Shown: positions 29,203-37,561, counted from the first letter of the stretch. The stretch is 64,000 nucleotides of DNA from Cytophagaceae bacterium (GCA_005791165.1 SXXW01000011.1:62001-126000), one strand, 5' to 3'. Made by a program: numbers and translations. The notes: generated by a model not told the origin, from the letters alone.

Positions 29203-29613
29203 ATGTCGATTAATTATCAGATTAACCCTACTATTTGTGTTCACGATTTGATTGATATTTTACATAAATCTACGTTGGGATTGAGAAGGCCGTTGGCAGA
29301 TTTAGAGGCGATGGAGAGCATGTTGGCGCATGCGAATTATTACATTGGTGCTTATGAAAATGGCCAATTGGTAGGACTGGCGCGTGCGATGACTGATTTT
29401 GTGTATACGACTTATTTAGCGGATTTGGCGGTAGATGAAAAATATCAACATCAGGGGATTGGAAAAGAATTAATTAAAATCTTGAAAATAAATATCCTGA
29501 GGGCTAAATTGATTTTATTAGCTGCGCCCGCAGCGGAGGCATATTATCCTAAAATTGGGATGCAAAATCATCCGCATTGCTATTTTATAGACCGAATCGA
29601 GGAGATTAATTGA
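29203..29613 (+). CDS. GNAT family N-acetyltransferase
   Basis: YLADLAVDEKYQHQGIGKELIKILK acetyl-CoA-binding motif A; LLAAPAAEAYYPKIGMQNH. Confidence 0.93.
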   Translation: MSINYQINPTICVHDLIDILHKSTLGLRRPLADLEAMESMLAHANYYIGAYENGQLVGLARAMTDFVYTTYLADLAVDEKYQHQGIGKELIKILKINILRAKLILLAAPAAEAYYPKIGMQNHPHCYFIDRIEEIN

Positions 29614-31354
29614 TAACAACGAGTCGTTTGGTGGAAATTCTTCCCTCTCGACTAATGTAGGAAATAAAATAATTGGCATTAGGCCAGTTGGTCACATCGA
29701 CCACCCTTTCACGTTCAACATCTATTGTATCCGTATAGAATACAAAGCCATTCATGTCATAAATTTTTATACTTCCTTGAATTAATCGAGGCCACCGAAG
29801 CGTAAATTGTTTGGTAGCAGGATTTGGTCCAATGGTGAAAACATCAGATTCTCCGTCCACCATTTGAATCGGAAATCCAGAAAACCCAAGAGCTCTCATG
29901 CCTAATTTATTTTTCAAATAAGGTCCTGGATACGGATACTCGGTAAGGCCTACGACAAAACTTGAATGAAAGCTAGGAATGTAACTAACAATATTGCCTT
30001 CATATTGTAAAGTAAAAGTGATGGCTATTTTTTTCCCGTTAATCACTTCGATCTTTTTGATATTTTTTGACATGGACTTCGTATTTATTTCGTCCCAAAA
30101 AAATTGATCAGCTAATGTTAATTTATGTGTCTTGTTTTTTAGGTCTACGACCATTGTGTCATTAGGAATTACAATATTTTGCCCTTCTTCAAAATCAATG
30201 AAAAGTTTATCTCGATCTTTTTCAGATAGAAAATAAGCTCTTTGGATTTTTGGACTATTAATTTCGGTGGGCCAATTCCGCTTGTAAATCTCTTTTGAGA
30301 TTATTCTAAATTGTTCATAAGCCGCTTGGCGATATCCATCATTACTGTAATGAAGTCGGTCAAAACCTTTAATTCCCACCGTTGCATAAACCTTTACATA
30401 AGGGTCATATGCTTGTTTTCTTTGATCCTCTCGAACATAAGCAGCTTCCGGATATGGGTATTCGTACACGTTGTTTTGTGAAACAAATAGAAATTGAGAG
30501 CTGGGAAAAAACTTTTTATATTTTTGTTTTAGGTTTTCAAATTTTACCCCCCATGTATATTTGGTACCTATGGAAGCCGCAGCTTCGGATTCTCCTTGTC
30601 GGTAAATAATGCCTTTCACATGGTTTAATGTCCCCGATTTTAAGGCCTTGTAATACATGATATTTCCCCCATCTGGAGATGAAATATTGCCATCTAGAAT
30701 GGAAAGCCAATCAATATTGGACCCTCCGGCAGCCGAATTTATAATGGAAATTGGGATTTTTTCGGACTCAAAAAGAAGTCTGCCCATCTCTGCAGCCCAA
30801 GGTCCAATCCTAGCTCCGCCCACGGGAAGTGACCATAAAGTATCTGCTAAATTATAAGGACCAAAATTTTCATTCCCCTGAACCGCTCCGAATGACCTTA
30901 GCCATTCGCCTTGATAAACTAAATTATCAATGGGCCCAATCCATGCATTCGATTGCCCAGTAACATAATATACATCCCCGGCCACTACATTTTTTCGCTT
31001 AACTACTAAGCTAGAATCTTTCCCTTTGAAGCCATATACTTCAAAATCATACTCTGCTAATTCTGCTGGGATTTGAAATTTAGTTGAAAATTTAGCCGAT
31101 GATCCGCTAAATGTTAAAGCCACTTTCTGGTATTTATTGTTGGCGCTATTTCGCAAAACTCGAACGGAAACGGCGGTAAATTCGGTAGATTTTGCTACAC
31201 CTTCCACCGTAATATCAGCCAAATTCGTAGACTCTCTAGGATATAATTGAAAATCTTGAGGTAATTTATTGAAAGTAAAAGAGCCAAAAGTCTGAGCCGA
31301 AGTTCTGCTAAATAAACATAAACTAAAAAATAAAAGTGAAATAATTTTTTGCAT
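29606..31354 (-). CDS. Sialate O-acetylesterase (SASA)-like secreted esterase with T9SS C-terminal sorting domain
   Basis: Signal peptide MQKIISLLFFSLCLFSRTSAQ; GDVYYVTGQSNAWIGPIDN (GQSN) catalytic block; C-terminal GPNPATKQFTLRWP...IKIYDMNGFVFYTDTID...YFISYISREGRISTKRLVVIN is T9SS type A-like. Confidence 0.82.
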   Translation of the reverse strand: MQKIISLLFFSLCLFSRTSAQTFGSFTFNKLPQDFQLYPRESTNLADITVEGVAKSTEFTAVSVRVLRNSANNKYQKVALTFSGSSAKFSTKFQIPAELAEYDFEVYGFKGKDSSLVVKRKNVVAGDVYYVTGQSNAWIGPIDNLVYQGEWLRSFGAVQGNENFGPYNLADTLWSLPVGGARIGPWAAEMGRLLFESEKIPISIINSAAGGSNIDWLSILDGNISSPDGGNIMYYKALKSGTLNHVKGIIYRQGESEAAASIGTKYTWGVKFENLKQKYKKFFPSSQFLFVSQNNVYEYPYPEAAYVREDQRKQAYDPYVKVYATVGIKGFDRLHYSNDGYRQAAYEQFRIISKEIYKRNWPTEINSPKIQRAYFLSEKDRDKLFIDFEEGQNIVIPNDTMVVDLKNKTHKLTLADQFFWDEINTKSMSKNIKKIEVINGKKIAITFTLQYEGNIVSYIPSFHSSFVVGLTEYPYPGPYLKNKLGMRALGFSGFPIQMVDGESDVFTIGPNPATKQFTLRWPRLIQGSIKIYDMNGFVFYTDTIDVERERVVDVTNWPNANYFISYISREGRISTKRLVVIN

Positions 31355-31469
31355 CTCAGGTAATAAGGCTTTGCTTTTAAGAGCCCACAATTTACAACAA
31401 ATCGCCAAATTATTTTGAAATAATACCCCTAAAAATAATTTTAGCAAATCTCATTTCAGTAAAATCCAT

Positions 31470-31477
31470 TAACTTTG
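31470..31477 (+). promoter_or_regulatory. Candidate -7 box TAACTTTG for the CofD-like operon
   Basis: Exact TAnnTTTG match 18 bp upstream of ATG 31496; implies the TTG 31475 start is not used. Confidence 0.5.
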
Positions 31478-31495
31478 AAACTTATCAAGTTTATT

Positions 31496-33196
31496 ATGAA
31501 CGTCGTTGTTTTTACAGGGGGTAATGGAAATGCTAATCTAATTAAGCACTTAAAAGATTTATCCTATGTGAATTTAAGCCTTTTAATCAACGGATATGAC
31601 GACGGTCTTTCCACGGGAGTTATTCGAAGTGCCAATCAAGGTATGCTTGGGCCCTCAGATTACCGTAAGAATTTCACCTATATTTTAGATGATTTCACCG
31701 ATTATAACCGAAATCTTAAAAAGCTTTTTGAACATCGATTAAGTGAGGAAGAAACGAGAGTTCTTTTGCATAATCCGGAAGAATTGATCAAAAATCTGAT
31801 TCAAGAAAAGTACACTTTAGATCGTCGCTCCGAAAATTTTATCACCCGATACTTTGAATCAGGTTCTCAAAAGCTTTTAAAATTCACCCATAATTTTTCT
31901 ATTCTGAATGGTTTTAGTGTAGGAAATATCATAATAGGTGGTATTTATGCGGAAACAAATGATTTCAATCTTGCGCTATATCTATTGACCACCCAATTTG
32001 AATTAACAGCAAAAATTATCAATATATCTACGGCCGATGATTCTAAATTAGTGGCCTTTGATGGGGACGGTAATTTTTTAGCTAATGAAGCGGATATTGT
32101 CAACTATGATGGAAATAAGCCCCTTTCAGATTTTTATTTATTGCCTTTAGATGAGCTTAATGCGCTCGATAAGCAAGGTAAATATGAAAAGGAAGAAATA
32201 GCTAGAATTTCAAAAATACCTTCCTTATCCAAAGAAGCAATAAAGGCCTTGAAAGAGGCTGATTTGATCATTTTTGGATCGGGAACACAGTTTTCTTCCC
32301 TGCTTCCCTCGTATCGAATTTGCAAAAACGCAATCCTAAAATCGAAGGCCCAAAAAGTATTAGTTGTCAATAATAATTATGACAGCGACATCAGAAATAT
32401 ACAATTTGACGAGTTTACACTAAAAATTCTAAATGAATTAGACCAATCGAATTGTGATTTTTTTGACTCCATCATTGTAGATACAAATTCAGTAATTAAG
32501 CCTAAACAATCGCTTCCCAACTTGACCACAGCTAATGTAGCAGATCCTTCAGGGAAACACGATGGGCAAAAGTTATGGACTTGGATCAATCGATCACTGG
32601 ATATTAAGTTGGGTGAAGTTCCTGTACTCATCTCTTTTGCTAAGAATACCGAAGAATTTATTAAAGATTATTACCACAATGAAATGGAAAGCCTTAATAG
32701 CGATCCCACAAGGATTATTAAATTCTATCAAGCAGGAGAAAAAGAGTCGACGTCCTACACGCTGCATTTAGATGCTTCCGGGAAAGTGTCACTTTATGAA
32801 ATAGATGCTTGGATTCGAATCATGCAACTAAACCAATTGGATGCTGTGATCGGGTCTAGGTTTGAGTCGAGGCGCCAACTAATCAACTCGTTTAAACACT
32901 CGATTGTCGAGTCTAATTTAATCTATTTATTTGCCCTGATTACCTCATATTGGGTTAGTATTGTATATTTTATTCGATTTTGGAGAATTATGCCTGATCC
33001 ACTCAGCGGGATTTATTTGATCAAATCCAAACATGATATCCCCTATAAAAACCTATCCTATTTCTTGAAAAAAATAAATAGAAAAAAGAATTTCGAATTT
33101 GTTTCCCTACCCATCAGTTACCGCACATTTAAAAAAGTTAAAATCTTAACCAAAATAAAAAATGTAATCGTCAACTTGCTTGGGCTCTATGTATAA
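31496..33196 (+). CDS. CofD/YvcK-like (2-phospho-L-lactate transferase family) domain with a C-terminal GT2-like domain
   Basis: N-terminal VVVFTGGNGNANLIKHL, LINGYDDGLSTGVIRSANQGMLGPSDYRKNFTYIL, ADLIIFGSGTQFSSLLPSYRICKNAILKSKAQKVLVVNNNYDSD match CofD/YvcK motifs; C-terminal HLDASGKVSLYEIDAWIRIMQLNQLDAVIGSRFESRR...PDPLSGIYLIKSK...EFVSLPISYRTFKKVKI resembles polyprenyl-phosphate GT2. Confidence 0.78.
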   Translation: MNVVVFTGGNGNANLIKHLKDLSYVNLSLLINGYDDGLSTGVIRSANQGMLGPSDYRKNFTYILDDFTDYNRNLKKLFEHRLSEEETRVLLHNPEELIKNLIQEKYTLDRRSENFITRYFESGSQKLLKFTHNFSILNGFSVGNIIIGGIYAETNDFNLALYLLTTQFELTAKIINISTADDSKLVAFDGDGNFLANEADIVNYDGNKPLSDFYLLPLDELNALDKQGKYEKEEIARISKIPSLSKEAIKALKEADLIIFGSGTQFSSLLPSYRICKNAILKSKAQKVLVVNNNYDSDIRNIQFDEFTLKILNELDQSNCDFFDSIIVDTNSVIKPKQSLPNLTTANVADPSGKHDGQKLWTWINRSLDIKLGEVPVLISFAKNTEEFIKDYYHNEMESLNSDPTRIIKFYQAGEKESTSYTLHLDASGKVSLYEIDAWIRIMQLNQLDAVIGSRFESRRQLINSFKHSIVESNLIYLFALITSYWVSIVYFIRFWRIMPDPLSGIYLIKSKHDIPYKNLSYFLKKINRKKNFEFVSLPISYRTFKKVKILTKIKNVIVNLLGLYV

Positions 33197-33800
33197 TCTA
33201 CTTTTTGATTTTGATGGAACTCTTTTTGACACTGATTCCGCTCACGAATTAGCTTTTCAAAAGACTTTTTCGAATTTTGAGTTAGGAGAATGTCCTCCTT
33301 ATGAATCATTGAAGGGAATTAAAACCAAAGACGTGTTTGCCAATTATTCCGATGATGAGGAAATGGTGAAAAAACTGGCTTCATATAAATCGCAAACCTA
33401 TCAGGCCGACCTAAATGCCATAAAAGCCTTGGTTGATTTTGACCTAATCCGGCATTTAAAAAGTATAGGAAATCGAGTATTTATTGTGACGGGAGGAAGT
33501 CGGCTCTCCATCGACCTATTGCTTAATGTGCATCAAATTGCTGGGTTTTTTGACGGGATTATTGCCGCCGACGATTATAAAAAATCCAAGCCAGATCCAG
33601 AACCTTTTTTAACGTGTATTTCAAAATTCAATATTTCAGGTACAATGCATGGAATCGAAGACTCAATACAAGGAATTGAAAGTTTAAAAAATGCAGGTAT
33701 ATTCGTTGTTGGAGTTCATAACCCCCTAATTGCCAAAAAATCAGATTTGTATTTTCCTGAAATAAATGAATATTTAAAATATTTAATTGCCCAAGGATGA
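33189..33800 (+). CDS. HAD-superfamily hydrolase (phosphoglycolate phosphatase-like)
   Basis: LLFDFDGTLFDTDSAHELAFQ motif I; FIVTGGSRLSI motif II; DYKKSKPDPEPFLTCISKF motif III; GIEDSIQGIESLKNAGIFVVGV motif IV. Overlaps end of upstream gene. Confidence 0.92.
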   Translation: MYNLLFDFDGTLFDTDSAHELAFQKTFSNFELGECPPYESLKGIKTKDVFANYSDDEEMVKKLASYKSQTYQADLNAIKALVDFDLIRHLKSIGNRVFIVTGGSRLSIDLLLNVHQIAGFFDGIIAADDYKKSKPDPEPFLTCISKFNISGTMHGIEDSIQGIESLKNAGIFVVGVHNPLIAKKSDLYFPEINEYLKYLIAQG

Positions 33801-34564
33801 AAAAAGTCATCGTAATTCCAGCCGCCGGTAAAGGAAGTCGCCTCCATAGCGATTTGCCCAAAATATTTACAGCCGTTTATCAGACTAAATCTATTTTTGA
33901 CCTGATTGTGGAGCAAGGTACTTCGCATGTCGACGAAATGATTTTACTCTTAAGTCCGGCTGGCAAGGAATATTTTGACCTTCATATCGCCTCTTCCGCA
34001 CCCAAAAATGTACATGTATGGGTGCAAGAATCTGCCACCGGAATGTTTGATGCCATGAACCAATTATTTGAATCGCTCTTACATCGCCAGGAAAATTTTC
34101 AAGTAATTTTGCAATGGGGAGACCAACCGTTTTGTGATGCTGAATTGCATCAAACCCTGTTTTTAGACCTGAATAAATTCGAAGTGTCTGTCCCACTTGT
34201 TTGGGTTTCTTCGCCCTATGTTCAGTTTAAATTAGGCTCCCCATTAGCCGTTTGGGAAAGTAGAGAAGGCGAAAAATGTGACGATTTTGGATTTAAAGAT
34301 ATGGGGATTTTTGCCTTTACCCGTGGGTCGATTGAAGTTGCATGGCCATTGTATAAAATCAATGCGCCCATTGGGAAAGTTACGGGCGAACGAAATTTTG
34401 TTAAATTTTTTGAAACCATTCAGCAGAAAACCGAGATTTTTTGGCGCCTAGATCAGCCGTATTATAAGTCCATTGGTATCAATACCCCAGAAGAACTTAA
34501 GGAAGCTAATTTATTTTTAAGCCAAAAAGAGCAAATCCAACAAGGTTCTAGCGATAAATCGTAA
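33797..34564 (+). CDS. Nucleotidyltransferase (NTP-transferase fold, IspD/GlmU-like)
   Basis: VIVIPAAGKGSRLHSDLPKIFTAV is the classic nucleotidyltransferase N-terminus; VILQWGDQPFCDAELHQ; ATGA overlap with HAD gene. Confidence 0.85.
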   Translation: MKKVIVIPAAGKGSRLHSDLPKIFTAVYQTKSIFDLIVEQGTSHVDEMILLLSPAGKEYFDLHIASSAPKNVHVWVQESATGMFDAMNQLFESLLHRQENFQVILQWGDQPFCDAELHQTLFLDLNKFEVSVPLVWVSSPYVQFKLGSPLAVWESREGEKCDDFGFKDMGIFAFTRGSIEVAWPLYKINAPIGKVTGERNFVKFFETIQQKTEIFWRLDQPYYKSIGINTPEELKEANLFLSQKEQIQQGSSDKS

Positions 34565-34569
34565 ATTTG
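34562..34569 (+). promoter_or_regulatory. Candidate internal -7 box TAAATTTG before the epimerase gene
   Basis: TAnnTTTG match overlapping the upstream stop codon, 17 bp before the ATG. Confidence 0.35.
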
Positions 34570-34586
34570 TCGATTAACATTTTATT

Positions 34587-35471
34587 ATGCATTATTTAGT
34601 TACCGGCGGCGCCGGATTTATTGGGACTCACTTGTCTAATTACTTGATTTCTTTAGGACATCAAGTGAGTATTTTAGATGACATGTCTTTTGGTGATCCC
34701 ACTAAAATTCATCCAAAAGCCAATTTGATCATTGGTAAAATTGAAGATAGCAGCCTTTGCCTAGAAGCGACTAAAGGTGTCGATGGTGTTTTTCACATGG
34801 CGGCCTTTTCTAGAAGTGGGCCATCTTTTGATATGCCCGAACAATGTCATGAAAGCAATGCTTTAGGGACTTTAAATATACTTCAAGCGTGTAAAAAAAA
34901 TGGAGTTAAGCGTATCGTATATTCGGGATCGTCAACCTTTTACGGCAATAAAATAGGGGTCCAAAAAGAAGGAGATCCAGGAGATTTCTTGAATTTTTAT
35001 GGACTTACTAAGCATGTGGGCGAATTGTATGTGCAGCAGTTTTATCGAAATTTCGGACTTGAATGTAATATTTTGAGATACTTTAATGTGTATGGATCGG
35101 GCCAACCAGCCACCGGGGCGTATGCATTAGTGCTCGGGATTTTTATAGATCGATTTAAAAGAGGAGAGAGACTTGAAATACATGGTTCCGGCGAGCAAAG
35201 ACGTGATTTTATTCATGTCTTAGATATCGTCAAAGCGAATGTTGCCGCTATGAATTCCGAGACTGTGGGTGAAATTTTTAACATCGGTTCGGGTGTCAAT
35301 TACTCCATAAAAGAATTAGCTAATTTCTTCCCTATTGAAAATTTCCATACCGAAAGGAGATCTGGAGATGCTGAAGTAACATTAGCCGATATATCAAAAG
35401 CGCAAAAATACTTAGATTGGAATCCTGAAATATCGCTTGAACAAGGAATAAGCCAACTCATCGAAGAATGA
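34587..35471 (+). CDS. NAD-dependent epimerase/dehydratase (extended SDR, nucleotide-sugar epimerase-like)
   Basis: YLVTGGAGFIGTHLSNYLISLGHQVSILDDMSFG; YSGSSTFYG; YGLTKHVGELYVQQF (YxxxK); RRDFIHVLDIVKANVAAM. Confidence 0.93.
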   Translation: MHYLVTGGAGFIGTHLSNYLISLGHQVSILDDMSFGDPTKIHPKANLIIGKIEDSSLCLEATKGVDGVFHMAAFSRSGPSFDMPEQCHESNALGTLNILQACKKNGVKRIVYSGSSTFYGNKIGVQKEGDPGDFLNFYGLTKHVGELYVQQFYRNFGLECNILRYFNVYGSGQPATGAYALVLGIFIDRFKRGERLEIHGSGEQRRDFIHVLDIVKANVAAMNSETVGEIFNIGSGVNYSIKELANFFPIENFHTERRSGDAEVTLADISKAQKYLDWNPEISLEQGISQLIEE

Positions 35472-36193
35472 AATCCATCAGCATCGTCACCGCAGCCTTT
35501 AACGAATGCCCCGGAATAATCCAGTTGGCAAACGAATGGCTTTCGTTTTTCGATCAGCATCCAGATATATCCGAAGGAGAAGTGATTATTTGTGATGACC
35601 ATAGCGATTTACACCAATACGAATCGTTAAAAGATTCCTTTATTGGCAACCAACGGGTGACCATTTTACGAAATGAGCAAAATGAAGGGCCAGGATTTGC
35701 ATTTCAAAAAGCCATTTCTAAGGCCAAATACGACTGGACTTTAATCACCGATTCGGATGGCCAATTTCCCATCAATAACGTGAATCAAATGCTTTTAGCA
35801 TTAGGCAACCAAGATGCGGATATCGTTTTTACGCACCGGAATCGAAAATATGACAATGAGTTTAATCGTTTTGGCCAAAAGGTTTCTAACCAACTTTGTA
35901 ACTCAATCTTTAATTCCCAACTTCAAGATTTTTCTTGTGCATTTAAATTAGTCAAAACCCCGTTGCTTCAATCGCTAAAATTAGATGCGAGGTACATGAA
36001 CTATTCATTAGACCATACGGGGAAATTATTAAACTCCTCAGCTCAATGGATAGAAACTCATGTGACTTGCCGAGTTGCTGAGGCCAGAAAAAGAAATATA
36101 TCTAGCGAACTAAAACGAGCTAAAAATAGATTTTTATACATAGCCTATTTATTCTTCACGCAATACCTACGAAAAAATAGAGTCATTTTTTAA
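35468..36193 (+). CDS. Glycosyltransferase family 2 (dolichyl/polyprenyl-phosphate transferase-like)
   Basis: ISIVTAAFNECPGIIQLANEWLSF; VIICDDHSD; DWTLITDSDGQFPINNVNQMLLAL; ATGA overlap with epimerase gene. Confidence 0.9.
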   Translation: MKSISIVTAAFNECPGIIQLANEWLSFFDQHPDISEGEVIICDDHSDLHQYESLKDSFIGNQRVTILRNEQNEGPGFAFQKAISKAKYDWTLITDSDGQFPINNVNQMLLALGNQDADIVFTHRNRKYDNEFNRFGQKVSNQLCNSIFNSQLQDFSCAFKLVKTPLLQSLKLDARYMNYSLDHTGKLLNSSAQWIETHVTCRVAEARKRNISSELKRAKNRFLYIAYLFFTQYLRKNRVIF

Positions 36194-36211
36194 TGATTCT
36201 GCGATAAAACC

Positions 36212-37561
36212 ATGTTCTCAAAAATCCCTTTATTTCTTAGCTTATTGGTGTGGGGATTTATGGCATTCCTATTAATTTCCCTATCTTTTTATAATCAACC
36301 CAGTATCACCGACGACTTTTGCTTCGGCTGGATGGGCAGGGAATATGGAATATTTCTGGGCGCCTACCATTATTATGCGGGTTGGAGCGGGCGTTATTTC
36401 GCAGATCTTCTACTTCATTTTAACCCCTTAGTTTTTAGTACTTCCTTTGAGCATTTTAAATGGGGAACGATCGCCTTAATTGTAATTGGTTTTGCTAACG
36501 GCTATTATTTTTTAAAAAATGTATTCCAAATTCAGCATAATAATCCTAACCTCTGGATTCTTTCACTTGTCAGCCAAGCCGTTTGTTGGTATACAATACC
36601 AGGCCTTTTTCAATTATTTTATTGGTTCTCAGGTCATTATTACTACTTGTCTTTTCATTTAGTTCTATTATTTGTCAACATATATTTCTATTGTTCTAAG
36701 CCCATATTAAGAGTCACTTTACTCTCTTGTATCATTTTTTGCTTGATTGGGTCAAGCGAAATTTCCATGATCATGTTCTCTGGAATTTTTTGGCCATGGC
36801 AATTGTATAAGGCTTGGAAACAGAAAAAAATCAAATTAGAGACCATTTTATTTTTTATCATTTGGGGAATTTCCATAGGCCTAGTTTTGCTTTCCCCAGG
36901 AAATAAAGTTCGCGCCCCTAAACATATTGATTACATCAAAGGGCTCACAGAGTCGATGTTGAATTTTGGTATGTTGCTCAAAATTTATGTTAAATCACCG
37001 CTGATTTGGGTTTTCAACTTGCTTTTGTTTTTTACTATTGATAAGCCAAAAAAACAATATATTCTGTCATATAAGGAAATTTTAGGTCTTTTACTCTTGT
37101 TCCTCTCGAGCTATTTTTTAGCTTTTGTTCCTATGGCATTAGCGCTAGGCGAAGACTTTATTCCTGATCGAATTCAAAGTTTAATCTTGATGTATTTGAT
37201 TTTTGGGTTTGGATATCTTATTGTTTGGGTTAAATATAAGGTAGGCCACTTGAATTCTTCAAGCCTGGCTATTTCTCAAATTTCATTGCTAGTTGTATTT
37301 ATAACGCTCCTATTATTTAATCAAAATTCAAAACAATTTTATGATGAATGGCGTTTCGACAAAGCTAAAAAATACGCCAATGAAAATGCACAAAGGTTTG
37401 ACCTGATACTTAAATCAAAGAGTCAACAAGTTGCAATTCCCCCCATCGAAAATAAAAACACCATGTTTTTTATGGAAGAATTATCCACTGATCCTAAGCA
37501 TCTTTGGTGTAAATGTATTGCTAACTATTATGGCAAAACAGAAGTACAATTACTTAAATAA
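36212..37561 (+). CDS. Polytopic membrane protein, GT-C/DUF6056-like
   Basis: About ten hydrophobic segments; N-terminal loop QPSITDDFCFGWMGREYGIFLGAYHYYAGWSGRYFADLLLHF. Confidence 0.6.
   Translation: MFSKIPLFLSLLVWGFMAFLLISLSFYNQPSITDDFCFGWMGREYGIFLGAYHYYAGWSGRYFADLLLHFNPLVFSTSFEHFKWGTIALIVIGFANGYYFLKNVFQIQHNNPNLWILSLVSQAVCWYTIPGLFQLFYWFSGHYYYLSFHLVLLFVNIYFYCSKPILRVTLLSCIIFCLIGSSEISMIMFSGIFWPWQLYKAWKQKKIKLETILFFIIWGISIGLVLLSPGNKVRAPKHIDYIKGLTESMLNFGMLLKIYVKSPLIWVFNLLLFFTIDKPKKQYILSYKEILGLLLLFLSSYFLAFVPMALALGEDFIPDRIQSLILMYLIFGFGYLIVWVKYKVGHLNSSSLAISQISLLVVFITLLLFNQNSKQFYDEWRFDKAKKYANENAQRFDLILKSKSQQVAIPPIENKNTMFFMEELSTDPKHLWCKCIANYYGKTEVQLLK

Follow-up and report, generated by a model that had tools for sequence, protein, structure and literature searches.

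A five-gene cassette from a freshwater bacterium encodes a CofD-family protein together with a HAD hydrolase, a nucleotidyltransferase (NTase), an extended SDR and a GT2 glycosyltransferase, and the first three of these, {CofD, HAD, NTase}, are found together again in large phages, as a recurring triad. The CofD domain of the cassette belongs to a third CofD subfamily, which is neither F420 CofD nor YvcK/GlmR. The CofD family is known from F420 synthesis and, as YvcK/GlmR, from UDP-GlcNAc homeostasis; no description of the triad, or of a CofD–glycan or CofD–phage system, was found in the literature searched, and since coverage of that literature was partial the novelty of the system is provisional.

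Gene content and boundaries of the cassette

The cassette was studied within a window of 64,000 nucleotides, the whole stretch of DNA analysed, in which the relevant features are as follows.

29606-31447, minus strand: secreted SASA-type esterase with a Por sorting tail, divergent from the cassette and separated from it by a 48-bp gap (31448-31495)
31496-33196, plus strand: gene 1, CofD-family protein of 566 aa (PF01933) with a C-terminal domain of no assigned type
31502-32494, plus strand: CofD domain of gene 1, residues 3-333 (PF01933, E 3.8e-26), third CofD subfamily
31598-31600 and 31658-31660, plus strand: codons of gene 1 residues D35 and D55, which align with FbiA D45/D57
32513-33193, plus strand: C-terminal domain of gene 1, residues 340-566, with a hydrophobic segment at residues 475-493
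33189-33800, plus strand: gene 2, HAD hydrolase, beta-phosphoglucomutase/phosphatase-like (HAD_2, E 1.8e-27)
33797-34564, plus strand: gene 3, GlmU/IspD-like NTase by profile and fold
34587-35471, plus strand: gene 4, extended SDR of the GalE-like NDP-sugar epimerase/dehydratase family (Epimerase PF01370, E 5.5e-55)
35468-36193, plus strand: gene 5, GT2 (Glycos_transf_2 PF00535, E 2.1e-18)
36212-37561, plus strand: DUF6056 polytopic membrane protein (E 4e-14), a neighbour outside the cassette

The six co-directional open reading frames with short overlaps that a sequence-only reading had proposed all lie on the plus strand exactly where it placed them. Since all six are conserved in relatives at 38-98% identity and in unchanged order, they are not chance reading frames; homologues of gene 1 are 51-98% identical to the window protein.

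The same reading had assigned the six genes to one operon. Genes 1-5 do behave as a conserved unit, and among same-genus relatives the block is syntenic with its gene content conserved, as the proposal of an operon required, but the DUF6056 membrane gene does not belong to that unit and drops out of the system. In five genomes of the genus (G012, G041, G057, G070, G090) the esterase gene adjoins the DUF6056 gene directly, the latter encoding a protein of 41-44% identity, and what is missing is exactly CofD, HAD, NTase, SDR and GT2. Two genomes of another Bacteroidota lineage (L010 and L050) carry exactly the same five genes without DUF6056, in an arrangement where HAD-NTase is divergent from SDR-GT2-CofD. 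The empty sites and the gene content of L010 and L050 thus delimit a five-gene cassette beside which DUF6056 is a resident neighbour. In G133 and G138 all six genes are gone, and the divergent SASA-type esterase gene adjoins an amidohydrolase gene.

Gene 1 occurs in 12 of 201 sampled genomes of the family (its own genome included), all 12 belonging to one genus. Outside the genus it is found in the two genomes of the other Bacteroidota lineage, and wider Bacteroidota sampling at the levels of phylum, class and order returned no further carriers. This patchy distribution fits either horizontal gain or repeated loss.

Several local features accompany these comparisons. The SASA-type esterase stays in place whether or not a genome carries the cassette, and in one same-genus genome (L003:16097-17166) most of the two amidohydrolase genes that follow the block has gone, leaving a 147-aa remnant before the next conserved gene. 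In UBA2664 the cassette has as neighbours (L010:7076-10222) another SDR gene and a gene for a 696-aa protein that matches PMT_2 only weakly (E 0.0069) and may stand in for a membrane glycosyltransferase there. Several same-genus MAGs of 2-3 Mb (L003, L005, L009) are titled Spirosoma fluviale, a species label that looks doubtful; Spirosoma genomes are usually much larger.

The CofD domain and the C-terminal domain of gene 1

A tree was computed from cassette, phage and Acaryochloris CofD proteins together with F420 CofD proteins from annotated cof operons, YvcK and E. coli YbhK. Cassette CofD, phage CofD-HAD and Acaryochloris CofD form one clade (99/99), apart from YvcK and also from the F420 CofD proteins, which separate at 100/100; the tree contains long branches, and the exact sister group of this third clade is uncertain. 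The catalytic metal of FbiA is bound by D45 and D57 (PMC7253369), equivalent to D35 and D55 in gene 1, and aspartate occupies both positions throughout the four groups of sequences that were compared. The catalytic site of GlmR consists of D40/D41/N198 (PMC10128056); both aspartates are present in the cassette, in which the N198 position is Ser, and the D41 position is Asn in most phage CofD proteins. The cyanobacterial member of the clade is a stand-alone CofD (37.5% identity to phage CofD) encoded on pREC4, a conjugative plasmid of Acaryochloris marina (L035:14983-16080), where no recognised NTase or HAD gene adjoins it.

Gene 1 had been read as a CofD-GT fusion, of which the CofD part stands (PF01933, E 3.8e-26) and the GT part finds no profile support. 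Pfam searches with six homologues identified no GT family in the C-terminal region (approximately residues 340-566), nor was there a GT among the PDB profile-search matches of this region. Comparison with the gene 5 GT2 by hhalign (E 0.025) did not confirm a GT, and E values against profiles including ArnC and YfdH were 0.047-0.6. The domain contains one strongly hydrophobic segment (residues 475-493), and the order of its motifs (LDASGK - GSRF - DPLSGIYL - PISYR) may recall polyprenyl-phosphate glycosyltransferases, a resemblance at motif level only. Proteins 1 and 3 yielded poor AlphaFold models, built from shallow alignments (mean pLDDT 52.7 and 61.0, respectively), and the Foldseek matches of these models serve as supporting information only.

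Genes 2-5

The HAD protein retains all four HAD motifs in the alignment, and its profile match is PGMB-YQAB, a family containing phosphosugar mutases. Gene 3 is GlmU/IspD-like both in profile search and in fold search (the latter with the poor model, mean pLDDT 61.0); its NTP_transf_3 and IspD matches (6.5e-6 and 1.3e-4) lie below curated cut-offs, family searches gave no match to CofC, and the NTase catalytic motifs are kept (AAGKGSR, WGD, PYV, GINTPEEL). Three genuine CofC proteins split from the cassette NTase at 100/100 in the corresponding tree. The YxxxK motif of the SDR is conserved. The PDB profile matches of gene 5 are the polyprenyl-phosphate sugar transferases ArnC, sll0501 and DPMS, its hhalign comparison with ArnC/YfdH reached a probability of 97.5% (E 8.4e-12), and an acidic DxD-type motif, DSDGQ, is invariant in its alignment; by this resemblance gene 5 is predicted to be a GT2 similar to polyprenyl-phosphate sugar transferases. 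The cassette shares this enzyme type with the ArnC, GtrB/YfdH and DPMS systems but has no flippase gene. Those systems are not known to contain a CofD-HAD-NTase triad. The suggestion that the conserved genes operate in a cell-surface or lipid-linked glycan setting is supported.

A CofD-HAD-NTase triad in large phages

Two separate searches of annotated phage records, one using the CofD of the window as query and the other its NTase, led to LR756500, a 462-kb uncultured phage and the sole record among 50,697 that the NTase matched. The two matches lie about 2 kb apart, and the phage CofD, 33% identical to that of the window, carries a fused PMM-like HAD domain. When viral sequences were scanned with bacterial queries only, nothing matched, and single phage proteins as queries returned the same phage only; a mixed alignment of bacterial, phage and cyanobacterial sequences recovered 12 IMG/VR loci, or 10 when near-duplicates are counted once. 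The phage loci as a set (L034, L036-L048) comprise LR756500 and IMG/VR contigs of up to 429 kb.

Each of the 10 distinct viral loci encodes a full CofD-HAD fusion and an NTase with the WGD...PYV signature of the cassette enzyme, the NTase gene adjoining CofD-HAD in nine and lying about 1.2 kb away in one. A homologue of the T4 beta-glucosyltransferase (BGT) is present in 8/10 and a thymidylate-synthase homologue in 7/10, with thymidylate-kinase-like and guanylate-kinase-like genes in six and four loci, respectively. By gene content these are probable DNA-hypermodification cassettes. Their proximity to BGT and thymidylate-synthase homologues is shared with the T4 glucosyl-hmC and RB69-type arabinosylation loci, which differ in that the accessible part of the literature on T4/RB69-type pyrimidine hypermodification contains no mention that we found of CofD or CofD-HAD; likewise, the literature searched, in its partial coverage, yielded nothing connecting CofD to DNA modification in phages. 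A candidate counterpart in phages, RB69 ORF53_52c, was rejected; its description, as far as it was accessible, gives a GT-A-like domain at the N terminus and does not mention CofD. Neither the phage CofD-HAD nor the phage NTase has a family in PHROGs. Matches to YvcK, whose gene normally lies on the chromosome, also came from a 2.9-Mb Listeria entry labelled a plasmid and from several short Listeria phage entries; these are probably mis-filed records or host DNA.

The catalytic motifs of the phage HAD domains are conserved. As these domains are PMM-like and that of the window is beta-phosphoglucomutase/HAD_2-like, the two are analogous rather than orthologous, suggesting that HAD was either recruited repeatedly or swapped; either history argues for a phosphate-handling step within the pathway. 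Cassette and phage NTases match in BLASTP (E 5e-12) and share the WGD, PYV, G..D and N..E positions; in the NTase tree each forms a clade apart from CofC, and the two clades may or may not join.

Proposed mechanism and alternative explanations

We infer all catalytic steps that follow, and put them forward tentatively, as a plausible scheme that falls short of a probable one. The NTase would make NDP-X from an NTP and a small phosphorylated X-P, where X may be a sugar, an alditol or a hydroxy acid. The CofD domain, with a divalent metal held by D35 and D55, would then transfer P-X as a hydroxyl on a glycan or on a lipid-linked sugar attacks the distal phosphate, giving acceptor-P-X and a released NMP. 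The HAD enzyme would trim, removing or moving a phosphate before or after the CofD step, while the SDR would make the cognate NDP-sugar and the ArnC-like GT2 would load the sugar onto a polyprenyl carrier, thus supplying the lipid-linked sugar. The outcome would be a phospho-linked substituent on a surface glycan; in phages, the target of this triad would be glycosylated DNA bases.

We favour this CofC/CofD-type reading because the block is present or absent as a whole with its flanks kept and the same five genes recur rearranged elsewhere, because CofD and NTase occur together in 10/10 viral loci with HAD fused to CofD, and because the FbiA metal-binding Asp pair and the NTase catalytic motifs are preserved. 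It also draws on the layout of F420 operons, in which the CofD gene is followed directly by that of its NTase partner CofC, and on the likeness of the GT2 to polyprenyl-phosphate transferases. The analogy with CofC/CofD drawn from the sequence alone has gained weight from the phages, where both genes are found together again and a HAD is fused to the CofD. Against a transfer reaction it may be said that the nearby glycosyltransferases (GT2, or the phage BGT homologue) might just as well be the users of a special NDP-sugar that the triad produces, that the tree does not show cassette and phage NTases to be sisters, and that the HAD subfamilies differ. Extended to both settings, the scheme would make CofD-HAD-NTase an undescribed group-transfer module, a third functional branch of the CofD family, placing a phosphate-linked substituent on surface glycans in Bacteroidota and on glycosylated DNA bases in large phages, a generalisation that is possible and somewhat more speculative than the scheme itself.

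In the main rival, an unusual NDP-sugar is the joint product of the HAD protein (acting as a mutase or a phosphatase), the NTase and CofD, and is used by the adjacent glycosyltransferase, GT2 in bacteria and the T4 BGT homologue in phages, with CofD as a nucleotide-sugar forming or modifying enzyme. We regard it as a serious possibility, only somewhat less convincing than transfer. A glycosyltransferase stands beside the triad in 8/10 phage loci and in every bacterial cassette, and the HAD domains match families that contain phosphosugar mutases (PGMB-YQAB in the window, PMM in the phages). There is precedent in GlmR, which forms UDP-GlcNAc from UTP and GlcNAc-1P (PMC10128056), and in RB69-type phages, which carry NTase modules proposed to make a special donor (PMC6024577, PMC13390438). 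However, the NTase alone should suffice for donor synthesis, making a second nucleotidyltransferase redundant, and the GlmR site is altered, N198 to Ser in the cassette and D41 to Asn in most phages.

It is improbable that the CofD domain is instead a non-catalytic, YvcK-like regulatory sensor of NDP-sugars that steers a sugar pathway. YvcK-family structures are its best PDB matches and the nearest solved ones, and YvcK binds UDP-sugars and acts partly through protein contacts (PMC7525490). Yet the domain falls in a separate clade (99/99), its metal Asp pair is invariant, CofD is fused to HAD in phages, and the rapZ/whiA-type genes that flank Listeria yvcK are absent beside cassette CofD. As a protein, cassette CofD shares D40/D41 with GlmR; it scores 89.9 bits against TIGR01826 (the YvcK family), where the cut-off is 196, and differs from YvcK/GlmR in the Ser at N198, the added C-terminal domain and its neighbours.

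Similarly doubtful is the notion of two distinct functions, one for genes 1-3 and another for genes 4-5, linked only by a shared place in a surface-glycan island. In L010 and L050, HAD-NTase and SDR-GT2-CofD are indeed transcribed separately, and the phages have neither SDR nor GT2; on the other hand, two Bacteroidota lineages keep all five genes together despite rearrangement, five genomes lack all of them, and in L010 and L050 CofD is grouped with SDR-GT2 rather than with HAD-NTase.

Finally, a role in a coenzyme F420 (or F420-like deazaflavin) pathway, suggested by a CofD-family domain next to a nucleotidyltransferase, as in CofC/CofD (FbiD/FbiA), with which the cassette also shares the metal-binding Asp pair, is very unlikely, as a search of the genome (84% complete) for CofE (PF01996, E <= 0.01; controls positive in three archaea) found no match, gene 1 is its sole CofD-family protein above cut-off, CofD and the GlmU/IspD-like NTase both split from their F420 counterparts at 100/100, and HAD, SDR and GT2 take the place of deazaflavin genes as partners. 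The earlier reading away from F420 is supported: searches of this genome for cofE and CofD revealed no such pathway.

Implications

What is provisionally new here is a CofC/CofD-like logic in a new setting and with new partners. The five-gene set probably decorates a cell-surface sugar. A third CofD branch with two recurring partners, common to a bacterial surface-glycan cassette and to apparent phage DNA-hypermodification loci, points to a transfer chemistry, nucleotide-activated and so far uncharacterised, for which the cassette and phage sets offer small, testable sets of enzymes. The triad may also serve as a marker by which to predict phage DNA modifications that are not yet known.
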